Source: Syntrophotalea acetylenivorans
Lineage (GTDB): Bacteria > Desulfobacterota > Desulfuromonadia > Desulfuromonadales > Syntrophotaleaceae
Length of the DNA: 64,000 bases
Assembly: GCF_001887775.1 (NCBI RefSeq)
Contig: NZ_CP015519.1
Span: 62,001 to 126,000 of the forward strand
Direction of reading: 5' to 3'
Shown: positions 30,469-38,578 of the stretch, piece by piece
How positions within the stretch are numbered: position 1 is the stretch's first letter
Layout: the number at the start of each line of letters is the position of its first letter
Position numbers and translations under genes: made by a program
Notes under the pieces: generated by a model
What the model was told of the DNA's origin: nothing
The model's database searches: none
The model's input: only the letters and a program-made list of their open reading frames with translations

Positions 30469-31289
30469 ATGCAATGTGTTGCTGATGTCATGAAAAGGGA
30501 TGCCTGGTACCTGGCCTTGCTGGTGCCGTTGTTGGCGGTGGTCTACGCCACCGTGGTGCCGGATATGGCGGGGCAGTGGTCAGATGATCCCAACTACTCC
30601 CACGGCTTTCTGGTGCCGTTGATTGCCGGGTATTTTATATACCAAAAATGGCCGGAATTGCGTACGACACCGATTCGTCCCAGCCGTCTGGGGCTGCCGG
30701 TTATTCTGGCCAGCCTTTCTCTGCTGGTGGTCGGTATCGCCGGCACCGAATACTTTACCATGCGCTCCTCACTGGTTTTTCTATTGGCCGGTATCGTTCT
30801 GTACTGGTTCGGTGGGCAGGTGCTGAAAGTTCTTGCGCTGCCCATCGGTTTCCTCTTGTTCATGGTTCCCTTGCCCTACATCGTCTACGATGCCATGGCT
30901 TTTCCCCTGAAGTTGTTCATTACCAAGGTCTCGGTCTTTGTGCTCAAGGCCACTGGCATCATCGTCTGGCGGGAAGGGAATATTATCATGTTTCCGCAGA
31001 CGGTACTGGAAGTGGCAGACGCCTGCAGCGGACTGCGCTCGCTGATGTCCCTGCTGGCCCTGAGCGTGGCCTTTGCCTTCTTCTCGCAGAAGACCAACCT
31101 GAAGCGGACCCTTCTGGTATTGTCCGCTATCCCCATCGCCATCATCACCAATATGCTGCGGGTTATCGTCACCGGCTTTCTCGCCCAATATTACGGCAGG
31201 GCCGCGGCGGAGGGTTTTTTTCACGAGTTTGCCGGGATGGCGGTGTTTGCCATGGCTATGGTTTTATTGGTGGCATTTAGTGCCGTAAT

Positions 31290-31302
<13 letters not shown>
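30469..31302 (+). CDS. xrtA: Exosortase A
   Basis: Inner-membrane cysteine protease/transpeptidase-like enzyme (EpsH family) that processes PEP-CTERM sorting signals, 277 aa with about eight membrane helices. The catalytic triad is visible: Cys186 in EVADACSGLRSL, Arg231 in NMLRVIVTG and His252 in GFFHEFAGM. Early family features are SHGFLVPLIAGY and PLPYIVYDAMAFPLK. GGGGGA 6 nt before the ATG at 30469 supports this start; ATG 30490 is the alternative. The last residues (AVIRKA) and the stop lie in the first units of a 7-mer repeat. No PEP-CTERM substrate is encoded nearby except possibly the FnIII protein at 37700-38578. Confidence 0.95.
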
Positions 31303-35750: not shown

Positions 35751-36183
35751 CCACCACGAAGAGCACGAAGGACACGAAGAATGGATTTTGATGAACTTTC
35801 GAATCAACTGATTGGCTGTGCGCTACAAGTTCACCGTGAGTTGGGGCCGGGCCTGTTAGAGTCAACCTATGAAAAGTGTCTTGCCCATGAGTTGAGTTTT
35901 AATAATATTGATTTTAAACTGCAACATCCTCTTCCAGTAGAGTACAAGGGTATCCGTCTTGAGTGTGGTTACCGGGTTGATTTATTTATTGAGGATAATC
36001 TGATTGTTGAACTAAAAAGTGTAGAGCAAATCAAGGCTGTCCACGAAGCGCAACTGTTGACTTATATGAAACTTGCAAGTGTCAAAACCGGCCTATTGCT
36101 TAACTTTAACGTCAACAGGCTTAAAGATGGAATCAAGCGTTTCGTTCTCTGATCCCTTCGTGCTCTTCGTGTCCTTCGTGGTT
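35751..36183. repeat. 9-mer inverted repeat flanking GxxExxY copy 3
   Basis: Left arm CACGAAGAG-CACGAAGGA-CACGAAG at about 35754-35779 abuts the ATG at 35781. Right arm CTTCGTGCT-CTTCGTGTC-CTTCGTGG at about 36157-36182 follows the stop. The two arms are near-perfect reverse complements. The gene plus arms form a 430-bp cassette, of which the 35380 relic is a deletion derivative. Confidence 0.9.
35781..36152 (+). CDS. GxxExxY family protein, copy 3
   Basis: Intact 123-aa GxxExxY protein: HRELGPGLLESTYEKCLAHEL (about residues 17-37), GYRVDLFIEDNLIVELKSVEQIKAVHE with D..E.K spacing, MKLASVKTGLLLNFNVNRLKDGIK. It begins with its ATG directly against the left 9-mer arm, so it lacks a normal Shine-Dalgarno site apart from the purine-rich arm itself (CACGAAGA). 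It lies between prsK and prsR and breaks that two-gene unit. Function unknown; see copy 1 for the nuclease-like reading. Confidence 0.88.
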   Translation: MDFDELSNQLIGCALQVHRELGPGLLESTYEKCLAHELSFNNIDFKLQHPLPVEYKGIRLECGYRVDLFIEDNLIVELKSVEQIKAVHEAQLLTYMKLASVKTGLLLNFNVNRLKDGIKRFVL

Positions 36184-36212: not shown

Positions 36213-37604
36213 TTGGAAAAACTACTGATTATCGATGACAGCCCTGAGATTCGTCAACAACTGAAGTGGGGCTTGAAAAAGGATTATAAGCTGCTTCTCG
36301 CCGCTGATGTCGACGAGGGTTTGCGATTGTTTCGCAGCCATCAACCCAAGGTCGTGACCCTGGATCTTGGGTTGCCTCCCGATATCGACGGTGCTACTGA
36401 AGGGCTTCGCGGCTTGAAGGAAATTCTCACCGACGCACCCGGCACCAAGGTTGTTGTACTGTCCGGGAATGAGGAACGGGAGAATGCTCTAAAGGCCGTT
36501 GGGCTGGGCGCTTACGATTTTTATAGTAAGCCCATCGAACTGGCGGAGCTGAAGACGATTCTACAGCGGGCCTTTCACCTGGCAACCCTGGAAGAGGAAA
36601 ACCGCGGCCTGCTTCAGGCTACCCAGGCCGAACAACGGTCTCTGTCGGGGATCTTCGGCCAGTGTGTGAAAATGGAGGAGGTCTTTACTTCGATTCGCAA
36701 GGTGGCTTCTGTCGATGTTCCGGTGTTGATTCTGGGTGAAAGCGGTACCGGTAAGGAATTGGTTGCGCGAGCGTTGCACGACAACAGCCTGCGTAAAGAA
36801 GGTCCCTTTGTACCCATCAACTGCGGCGCGATTCCGGAGAATCTATTGGAATCGGAATTGTTCGGCCATGAGAAGGGGGCTTTTACCGGAGCTCAGTCCC
36901 AGGTAAAGGGCAAAATAGAATATGCTCAGGGCGGGACCCTGTTCCTTGATGAAATCGGGGAGATGCCGCCGCCGCTTCAGGTGAAGCTGTTGCGCTTTCT
37001 CCAGGAGCGGGTCATCCAGCGGGTCGGCGGCCGACAGGACATCGAGGTCGATGTACGGGTAGTGGCGGCGACCAATATCGATATCCAACAGGCGATACAG
37101 CAGGGTACTTTCCGCGAGGATCTTTTCTACTGTCTCGGGGTGATCAGCGTCGACCTGCCGCCGCTGCGAGAGCGAGAAGACGATGTGTTTTTATTGTCGC
37201 ATCTATTTTTGCATCGATACAATGGCGAATTCGGAAAAAAGGTTCGAGGGATCGGTCAAAATGCTATGGAAGCTTTGCGGGGCTATGACTGGCCGGGCAA
37301 TGTGCGGGAACTGGAGAACAAGATCAAACGGGCGGTGGTCATGGCCGATCAGCCTTTTCTGGAACCCGGAGACCTGGGGTTTGTCGACGTTGCGCCGGCT
37401 GAAGTTCCTGCTGAGAATGGGCAGGCCGGCGGCATCGCTTTAGCTTATGAAGGCCTCACTCTGAAGGAAGCCCGCCAGCGCTTGGAGAAGGAACTGCTGT
37501 TGATCGCTCTGGAGAAGGAGGACGGCAATATCGTGCGTAGTGCCGAGATTCTCGGTGTCAGCCGGCCGACTCTTTATGATCTGATGAAAAAACATGGTTT
37601 GTAA
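36213..37604 (+). CDS. prsR: XrtA/PEP-CTERM system sigma54 response regulator PrsR
   Basis: NtrC-type regulator, 463 aa, partner of PrsK (TIGR02915-like). Receiver domain with acid pair IIDDSPEI (7-14) and phospho-Asp51 in VVTLDLGLPP; AAA+ domain with Walker A GESGTGKE (about 176-183), the sigma54 contact GAFTGA (about 222-227) and Walker B GGTLFLDEIGEMP; C-terminal Fis-type helix-turn-helix NIVRSAEILGVSRPTLYDLM. TTG start with GGAG 9 nt upstream; the N-terminus begins at the usual receiver strand. It activates -24/-12 promoters; one such promoter lies upstream of the divergent FnIII gene that follows. Confidence 0.94.
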   Translation: MEKLLIIDDSPEIRQQLKWGLKKDYKLLLAADVDEGLRLFRSHQPKVVTLDLGLPPDIDGATEGLRGLKEILTDAPGTKVVVLSGNEERENALKAVGLGAYDFYSKPIELAELKTILQRAFHLATLEEENRGLLQATQAEQRSLSGIFGQCVKMEEVFTSIRKVASVDVPVLILGESGTGKELVARALHDNSLRKEGPFVPINCGAIPENLLESELFGHEKGAFTGAQSQVKGKIEYAQGGTLFLDEIGEMPPPLQVKLLRFLQERVIQRVGGRQDIEVDVRVVAATNIDIQQAIQQGTFREDLFYCLGVISVDLPPLREREDDVFLLSHLFLHRYNGEFGKKVRGIGQNAMEALRGYDWPGNVRELENKIKRAVVMADQPFLEPGDLGFVDVAPAEVPAENGQAGGIALAYEGLTLKEARQRLEKELLLIALEKEDGNIVRSAEILGVSRPTLYDLMKKHGL

Positions 37605-37699: not shown

Positions 37700-38578
37700 T
37701 CACTCCGCTACAAAAGAACTGGTTTCGCTTTCATATTCCTGCCCGTCGCCATCCACGGCGATGACTTGCCAATAATAAGTCGCGCCTTCTTCCAGGTCGT
37801 CGGTCGTGTAATAGCTGTCGGTCAGGCCGGCAACGACGATAGTGTCGCTATCATACGACACGGTAGCCGAAGGACTGCTGCCTCCTCCACCTCCACCACC
37901 ACCTCCTCCGCCACCGCAGCTGGCGGTGGACAGGGCTAACCCCACGCAGACCGTAAGGGCCAGCAGGCGTTGTTTGCCGAGGCGAGCCGCCAGTTGGCGC
38001 AGGCTTAAACCGACCAGGCAAACCATGGCGGCGAGCAACGGTGCCGAGGCGGGCGTGGTGGGGGGAGCGGAATCGCCATGGTGGCTTGCAATCGTGGCAC
38101 TGCCCGTTTGTAGCTGAGGATCGGTGCCGTAGCGCAGGGTGAAGGTCAGGTTGAGATCTGCCGGCGGCGTGCTCCAGATCAAGGTGGCCGGGGTGCCGGC
38201 TGTCTCACCCATCTCCGGTGCGACGGGTGCGGGGATCCAGGCGCTGGCCGTCAGGTTGGAGAGGCTGCTTTCGTACCCTGTGCTGTCGTAGACGGTGGCG
38301 CGGAAGTAGTAGACCGATCCTTCCGGCAGTTCGGTCAGGGTGAAGGATGTTACGTCGCCGACGTCGATGGGCGATGGCCCTTCCAAGGCTTCGATGCCAT
38401 CCAGGGGTAATTCACTGGACCCGGCCTTATAGTAGATCTTGTATCCGGCCACGTCGTCGCTGACGCTGGACTCCCAGTTGAGCTCGATATTTTGCGCCAG
38501 CAACAGGCCGGGGCAGGTTAGCAGAGAAATGACCAGTATCATCAGAGCGGCGATGGTCAATTTAATTGTATTTATCAT
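37700..38578 (-). CDS. Fibronectin type III protein with an internal hydrophobic/lipobox insertion
   Basis: A roughly 292-aa exported protein. N-terminal signal peptide (MINTIKLTIAALMILVISLL...), then a FnIII domain at about 30-112 (WESSVSDDVAGYKIYYKAG; ESSLSNLTASAW). A second FnIII domain starts at about 128 (TPATLIWSTPPADLNLTF) but is interrupted at about 166-237 by an insert: a Pro/Ser/Ala linker, a hydrophobic helix (LLAAMVCLVGLSL), basic residues (RQLAARLGKQR), a second hydrophobic helix and a lipobox-like LALSTASC followed by 11-12 glycines. The rest of the domain resumes (EEGATYYWQVIAVDGDGQEY). The helix-plus-basic part resembles a C-terminal sorting tail. It has its own sigma54-type promoter and sits next to prsR, so it may be an XrtA-system output protein. 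Confidence 0.8.
   Translation of the reverse strand: MINTIKLTIAALMILVISLLTCPGLLLAQNIELNWESSVSDDVAGYKIYYKAGSSELPLDGIEALEGPSPIDVGDVTSFTLTELPEGSVYYFRATVYDSTGYESSLSNLTASAWIPAPVAPEMGETAGTPATLIWSTPPADLNLTFTLRYGTDPQLQTGSATIASHHGDSAPPTTPASAPLLAAMVCLVGLSLRQLAARLGKQRLLALTVCVGLALSTASCGGGGGGGGGGGGSSPSATVSYDSDTIVVAGLTDSYYTTDDLEEGATYYWQVIAVDGDGQEYESETSSFVAE

Follow-up and report, generated by a model that had tools for sequence, protein, structure and literature searches.

A putative internal lipoprotein signal within a split fibronectin type III domain of Syntrophotalea acetylenivorans and other Desulfuromonadales

Lipoprotein signals are taught as being N-terminal only, and this is where annotation tools search for them. 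A signal peptide processed by Lgt and LspA contains a basic n-region, a short h-region, A, S, or G in front of the Cys, and often a Gly-rich linker behind it. A protein encoded in the window, which is the 64,000-nucleotide stretch of the S. acetylenivorans genome analyzed here (NZ_CP015519.1, positions 62,001 to 126,000), shares these features, but its putative signal is internal, N-terminally preceded by an exported domain and a predicted stop-transfer helix. The tails sorted by exosortase A (PEP-CTERM), rhombosortase (GlyGly-CTERM), or myxosortase (MYXO-CTERM) possess a transmembrane helix followed by Arg, as does the first helix, TM1, of the window protein, whereas in the latter an invariant Cys comes after a second helix, TM2, no PEP motif could be recognized, and the polypeptide continues. 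In GlyGly-CTERM, the Gly-rich motif, the transmembrane helix, and the basic end are C-terminal, in contrast to the Gly run of the window protein, which is situated after TM2 in a continuing chain. An internal MYXO-CTERM is reported for MXAN_5598 (PMC11980579).

Two NCBIfam families are also close. NF033207, “midcut-by-XrtH,” denotes by its name a cut in the middle of a protein by a sorting enzyme; it gave a weak match to 2 of 20 modules of the kind described below, was not listed for the window protein, and exceeded its cut-off of 45 bits in none of 58 genomes. NF058595, “invert_tail” or “lipo-invert putative C-terminal anchoring domain” (NCBIfam 20.0, June 2026), is a weakly matching model, whose curators apparently knew of such proteins and surmised an anchoring role. 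Its alignment to the window protein covers positions 8 to 90 of the 113 profile positions, which is most of the profile, with 27.2 bits (E = 3.9e-6), 30.3 bits with the tail alone, and 30.7 bits in the genome search. This is below the cut-off of 37 bits, so the window protein is not filed under NF058595, albeit it looks like a member in its build. With E <= 0.01 as the limit, the profile recognizes 19 of the 20 modules but exceeds the cut-off in none of the 58 relatives and in 2 of 194 genomes of the class, where one hit is a homologue of the window protein (L186 in G449, 37.8 bits) and the other an ordinary N-terminal lipoprotein (L185). The latter, together with hits below the threshold in 5 of the 14 control genomes, indicates that weak matches to this profile mean little. 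Among open-licence PMC articles, no paper on “lipo-invert” was found; nothing on point concerning an internal lipobox, or the action of Lgt/LspA on a TM2 placed after a short cytoplasmic loop and another transmembrane helix, was among the matches listed, and those listed for XrtH/JDVT-CTERM, “midcut,” and exosortase/PrsR/FnIII contained no paper on this protein.

Complementation of fibronectin type III (FN3, FnIII) fragments was reportedly described by Dutta in 2005. FN3 fragments of an engineered split monobody, cut in the CD loop, re-associate with a lower stability, Tm of ~45 versus 78°C (PMC11666773). Unlike this construct, the window protein carries a natural and conserved insertion, located likewise in the region from strands C/C' to E.

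Architecture of the split protein

The window represents an exopolysaccharide/exosortase A locus, in which XrtA, EpsI, PrsK, and PrsR were confirmed by profile. The gene of interest, positioned tail-to-tail with prsR, encodes a secreted protein of 292 amino acids with two FnIII domains, the second of them split (Table 1). FnIII-1 was recognized by Pfam fn3 with 42.8 bits (best stretch, residues 29 to 103), and FnIII-2 spans residues ~113 to 292 with a break beginning at about residue 165. The earlier note had described this break as two helices, a basic patch, a lipobox, and a Gly run, after which the domain resumes with a YYW strand, and both the sequence and the AlphaFold model bear this out; the run of “11 to 12” Gly residues comprises exactly 12 (residues 222 to 233), directly behind T218-A219-S220-C221. 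The lipobox Cys is thus residue 221 and not N-terminal as in a standard Lgt/LspA lipoprotein. The motif STASC fits a PROSITE-style lipobox pattern, and the Cys is located 16 residues past the last K or R.

Table 1. Features of the split-FnIII gene and its locus (positions in the window)
Feature	Position	Strand	Basis or remark
Split-FnIII protein gene	37700..38578	-	Stop included; Pfam, NCBIfam, AlphaFold model
N-terminal Sec (SPase I) signal peptide, residues 1-28	38495..38578	-	By eye; alignment A1 without a conserved Cys here
FnIII-1, residues 29-112	38243..38494	-	Pfam fn3, AlphaFold model, VIA
FnIII-2 N-half (strands A, B, C, short C'), residues 113-164	38087..38242	-	Model; single FN3 alignment
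TM1 helix, residues 179-199	37982..38044	-	Model; upstream hydrophobic 15-mer in 94/94 rule-assigned copies
Basic patch R194, R199, K202, R204, overlapping the TM1 helix end	37967..37999	-	n-region of the putative internal signal peptide
TM2, putative h-region of the internal signal peptide, residues 205-220	37919..37966	-	16 residues, last K/R to Cys
Lipobox Cys221 (TAS-C), predicted Lgt/LspA site	37916..37918	-	Sequence, alignments
Gly12 run, residues 222-233	37880..37915	-	Sequence; length varies among relatives
FnIII-2 C-half (last strands including YYW), residues 246-292	37703..37843	-	Model, VIA
PrsR, convergent neighbour, not part of the module	36213..37604	+	TIGR02915, 641 bits
Exosortase A (XrtA), same locus	30469..31302	+	TIGR03109, 222.6 bits (cut-off 208)

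We give an even chance to a reading of the insert as an internal signal peptide of type II, which would be cut by LspA while both halves remain together as one two-chain FnIII domain, being in effect a C-terminal lipid anchor. The architecture, the conservation, the single-domain fold of the model, and the LspA genes are observations, from which we infer the steps of the mechanism. Three LspA homologues (PF01252) over cut-off are encoded in the same genome (G000:C1:970980, 983148, and 2981441), which also contains an ordinary N-terminal lipoprotein (L175, G000:C1:718453) with LLLPGC followed by 10 Gly, the same style as at the internal site.

Distribution of the module and conservation of its Cys

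With the window protein as query, some match was obtained in 35 of 58 relatives. A profile search with A3, built from 20 diverse modules including their Cys, located the module at 97 sites, distributed over 67 of the 136 genomes from the order (E <= 1e-15). Of 297 genomes across the phylum, 18 gave a match (E <= 1e-8), only 8 of them with nearly the whole profile, and the match was confined to the last FnIII part in the remaining 10. Three hits came from another family of the phylum, and the one that was read (L153) has the module and the Cys. Outside the phylum, inspection of the sequences showed the module in MAGs of two Nitrospirota (L089, L093) and a Bdellovibrionales member (L080), and also in a MAG labelled Neptunomonas (L072), which may be misbinned. 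From 144 relatives, 80 loci were taken, 26 of which were translated and all 80 scanned by a strict rule; this yielded 13 rows, one of them false (L078), and missed some true copies (L077, L080, and L089). A natural split into two genes in L089 was excluded, since the full frame carries the module, and a phage origin was discarded because there was no tblastn match in a phage collection.

The host proteins are otherwise unrelated. They include S8 subtilases (L031, L055, and L056; PF00082), propellers of the YNCE/lactonase type (L039, L038), an Ig/fn3 protein (L093), and small FnIII proteins. In one subtilase copy (L062/L285, G050:C1:3104351-3104692), the frame stops directly after the Gly run and the last FnIII strands are absent, perhaps lost through slippage in the GGN repeat.

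The earlier note had proposed that homologues be searched for the same split with a conserved Cys and helix, and such homologues were found. In alignment A1, the homologues of which had been collected with the whole protein as query, the Cys ends TM2 in all 18 insert-bearing sequences, the window protein and 17 homologues. A lipobox-type Cys closes TM2 also in 97 of the 97 module copies from the 67 genomes; these copies had been selected by a profile that contained the Cys, which is why the 18 sequences found with the whole protein matter. When 96 copies were realigned with the Cys column masked, 87 Cys were in the column and 9 slightly displaced. A rule was applied by which the Cys had to be preceded by a hydrophobic stretch, followed by polar residues, and placed 11 to 22 residues downstream of K, R, or H. 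It assigned the Cys in 94 of the 96, and the other two were recognized by eye (L231, ILSAC; L273, LVLSC). The 97th copy, L038/L155 (G019:C80) with LLTAC, was read separately.

The surroundings of this Cys resemble those of an ordinary lipoprotein signal. Among the 94 copies, the residue at −1 is always A, S, or G, which the rule did not demand, and 54 copies have L at −3. The last K, R, or H precedes the Cys by 12 to 20 residues with a median of 16 (11 to 22 being permitted by the rule), and the region upstream of the h-region contains on average 3.8 K/R and 0.1 D/E. The lipobox pattern fits 80 of the 94 copies, and the other 14 deviate from it, in most cases at a single position (Q, N, or P between −4 and −2 and one Glu at −5). 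In a set of 38 proteins, which leaves aside L001 (no insert), L062 (truncated copy), and L051 (a form described below), the pattern was present at this Cys in 34 of 38 cases versus 3 of 112 other Cys residues. Some copies also carry a Cys at the end of TM1, before Arg. GGG follows directly after the lipobox Cys in 75 of 94 copies, and the Cys stays where the Gly run is lost, as in CSDD or CGNSS; the Gly run was rejected as the conserved element, its length being variable while the Cys is constant. An invariant Cys, A, S, or G at −1, a short h-region, and a basic n-region argue for a type II signal peptide rather than a plain transmembrane anchor, and this conservation strongly implies that the Cys would be lipidated.

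The hairpin of TM1, Arg, TM2, and lipobox was also present between an inhibitor I9 and an S8 protease domain in 8 proteins from 6 of 136 genomes, all within one family of the order (L218-L222 and L289-L296; G030, G044, G052, G424, G440, G481). Both domains were identified by Pfam in L051 only and by alignment in the other proteins. The Cys is present in 8 of 8 and a long Gly run in none (CSNSSS, CGSDDG, CGSGGD, CGGGDS). An I9 part generally acts as a non-covalently bound chaperone of its protease. The hairpin is likely, judged from its sequence, an internal lipoprotein signal in another context. If it were cut, the protease would become an ordinary enzyme lipidated at its N terminus, and the I9 part would remain behind the membrane hairpin. 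This second location, at a junction of two mutually binding parts, is a good indication that the hairpin serves for cutting.

Fold models, insert-free paralogues, and the neighbouring exosortase

An AlphaFold model of the window protein from 16 sequences had a mean pLDDT of 77.5, with block means of ~90 across most of both FnIII-2 halves, ~62 to 70 in the hairpin and less at its edges, and low confidence at residues 165 to 178 and 220 to 243. Helices were at 179 to 199 and 202 to 218, and strands including YYW at 246 to 291. In this model, both halves of the discontinuous FnIII-2 (residues 113 to 292) form one FN3 beta-sandwich. These residues matched the contiguous FN3 4n68 (99 residues) with Z = 9.7, an rmsd of 2.6 Å, and 90 aligned residues (VIA-align), which means that a single domain has ~80 residues looped out. 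The module of another protein, L093 of a Nitrospiraceae MAG, is 24% identical to that of the window protein and led to the same result, the two halves being joined in one FnIII and residues 11 to 186 of the model matching 3p4l (Z = 11.3, 95 aligned, 2.4 Å). In VIA-align, rows within 1 Z are to be read as tied, and a match indicates fold and not function. The hairpin is located between strands C' and E in L093 and between a short C' (residues 162 to 164) and the strand from 246 in the window protein.

The model represents a single uncut chain and is silent on a cut one. Since one FnIII was built from the uncut chain and the topology needs no cut, the insert may act as an uncut anchor, a hairpin of two transmembrane helices looped out of FnIII, with the Cys possibly lipidated as an additional anchor and the chain remaining whole. 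This explanation leaves the A, S, or G at −1 of an invariant Cys in 94 of 94 copies, the short h-region, and the ordinary appearance of the lipobox unexplained. As a rule, LspA acts on lipidated prolipoproteins, which also counts against it, and we regard the uncut anchor as unlikely, albeit as a serious competitor of the internal signal peptide. The same evidence from the site would also agree with a cut by LspA after which the halves part and two separately sorted products are released, as pictured in the earlier note. In this case, the C-terminal fragment would be half an FnIII domain, and core residues of both FnIII halves are invariant along with the Cys in A3 (W25, C111, Y158, W160, F179), which is a better fit to a pairing of the halves, so that such a release appears distinctly improbable.

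The earlier note had regarded homologues with an uninterrupted second domain as a refutation. Such insert-free paralogues exist, one in the same genome (L001, 59% identity in A1) and two in relatives (L071, L085), but they are nested in two branches among insert-bearing proteins. In a midpoint-rooted tree of the FnIII columns, L001 fell beside L009 and the window protein at a bootstrap of 82, and L071 and L085 beside L010 and L011 at 100. They look like losses for this reason and do not refute the module; the simplest reading of the tree would be at least two secondary losses, each leaving an intact FnIII domain. Within about 6 kb on each side of L071, 14 queries from the window locus gave no match except the paralogue itself. 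Values of dN/dS for the hairpin in four close pairs were 0.18, 0.29, 0, and 1.01, the last from few changes, and the hairpin looks to be under purifying selection in 3 of the 4. An artefact or a decaying insertion, either an assembly error or a recent mobile piece, might be suspected from the two insert-free lineages, a Gly run that is a simple repeat, and the single dN/dS of 1.01. The presence of the module in 67 of the order's 136 genomes, the three low dN/dS values, and the invariant Cys make this explanation practically negligible.

The position of the gene beside those for XrtA, EpsI, PrsK, and PrsR, and a TM1 followed by Arg as in sorting tails, would suit another explanation, in which a cut upstream of TM1 is made by exosortase A or a related kind of sortase, with TM1 being a displaced C-terminal sorting tail. 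The gene was next to prsR in 8 of the 16 insert-bearing loci that were compared, several of which have short flanks, so the protein of ~300 amino acids is often part of the exosortase neighbourhood. These 16 were among 23 loci compared, the other 7 not being counted as insert-bearing owing to a missing insert (L001, L071, L085), a contig end (L075, L079), a broken frame (L081), or another protein (L086). An exosortase was present in 21 of 33 module-bearing versus 6 of 25 other relatives (Fisher P = 0.004, uncorrected for shared ancestry), and with midcut-by-XrtH NCBIfam contains a family named after a mid-protein cut. On the other hand, 12 of the 33 module-bearing relatives had no exosortase hit, and 7 of these 12 genomes are 99 to 100% complete (G007, G014, G016, G029, G034, G041, and G048, each at least 99%). 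This indicates that an exosortase is unnecessary for the module, and dependence on it was rejected as a requirement, while the positive association and the shared locus remain. No PEP-type motif was seen by eye before TM1 in A1 or A3, TM1 is followed by 93 further residues, and the midcut profile gave only the weak matches mentioned above. A cut by an exosortase before TM1 is thus very improbable, and an accessory role of the exosortase in some lineages may exist.

A small ORF is located between prsK and prsR at window positions 35781 to 36152 and is of the GxxExxY type; it had a tblastn match in L068 and none in L069, L070, L073, L077, and L082.

Proposed processing and its meaning

According to the preferred reading, an internal signal peptide cut by LspA, the N-terminal signal would export the protein, TM1 would stop the transfer and leave the Arg/Lys loop in the cytoplasm, and TM2 would re-enter the membrane with its C-terminal end outside. 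Lgt would then attach diacylglycerol to Cys221, a lipidation that is probable in view of the conserved site. Once lipidated, the chain would with high probability be cut by LspA between S220 and C221, which would yield an N-terminal fragment of ~20 kDa (residues 29 to 220) and a lipoprotein fragment of 72 residues (~7 kDa) composed of Cys, a Gly linker, and the last FnIII strands. The two halves would keep or form one FnIII beta-sandwich, and it is equally probable that they stay together after such a cut. The N-terminal part, be it FnIII, a protease, or a propeller, would be held by the lipid near its C terminus. The earlier note had proposed that one polypeptide is processed internally, by exosortase A and/or signal peptidase II, into a tail-sorted N-terminal part and a lipoprotein-like C-terminal part. 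The lipoprotein-like part stands, being compatible with the invariant Cys, A, G, or S at −1, the short h-region, the basic n-region, and the LspA genes, but exosortase A is not required, as seen from the 12 of 33 relatives without it.

Our confidence in both cutting and re-association is moderate. More tentatively, the module could represent a widespread natural split-domain complementation, in which lipoprotein enzymes cut an internal signal placed in an FnIII loop or at an I9/S8 junction and the chains stay folded together, leaving the N terminus free. If this is true, many envelope proteins of the Desulfuromonadales, secreted subtilases included, would be two-chain lipoproteins that annotation would mistake for single soluble proteins or proteins with two transmembrane helices. 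Any exported protein could be lipid-anchored at its C-terminal end in this way. The module would be a natural counterpart to the engineered split FN3 and might be usable as a genetically encoded C-terminal lipid anchor.
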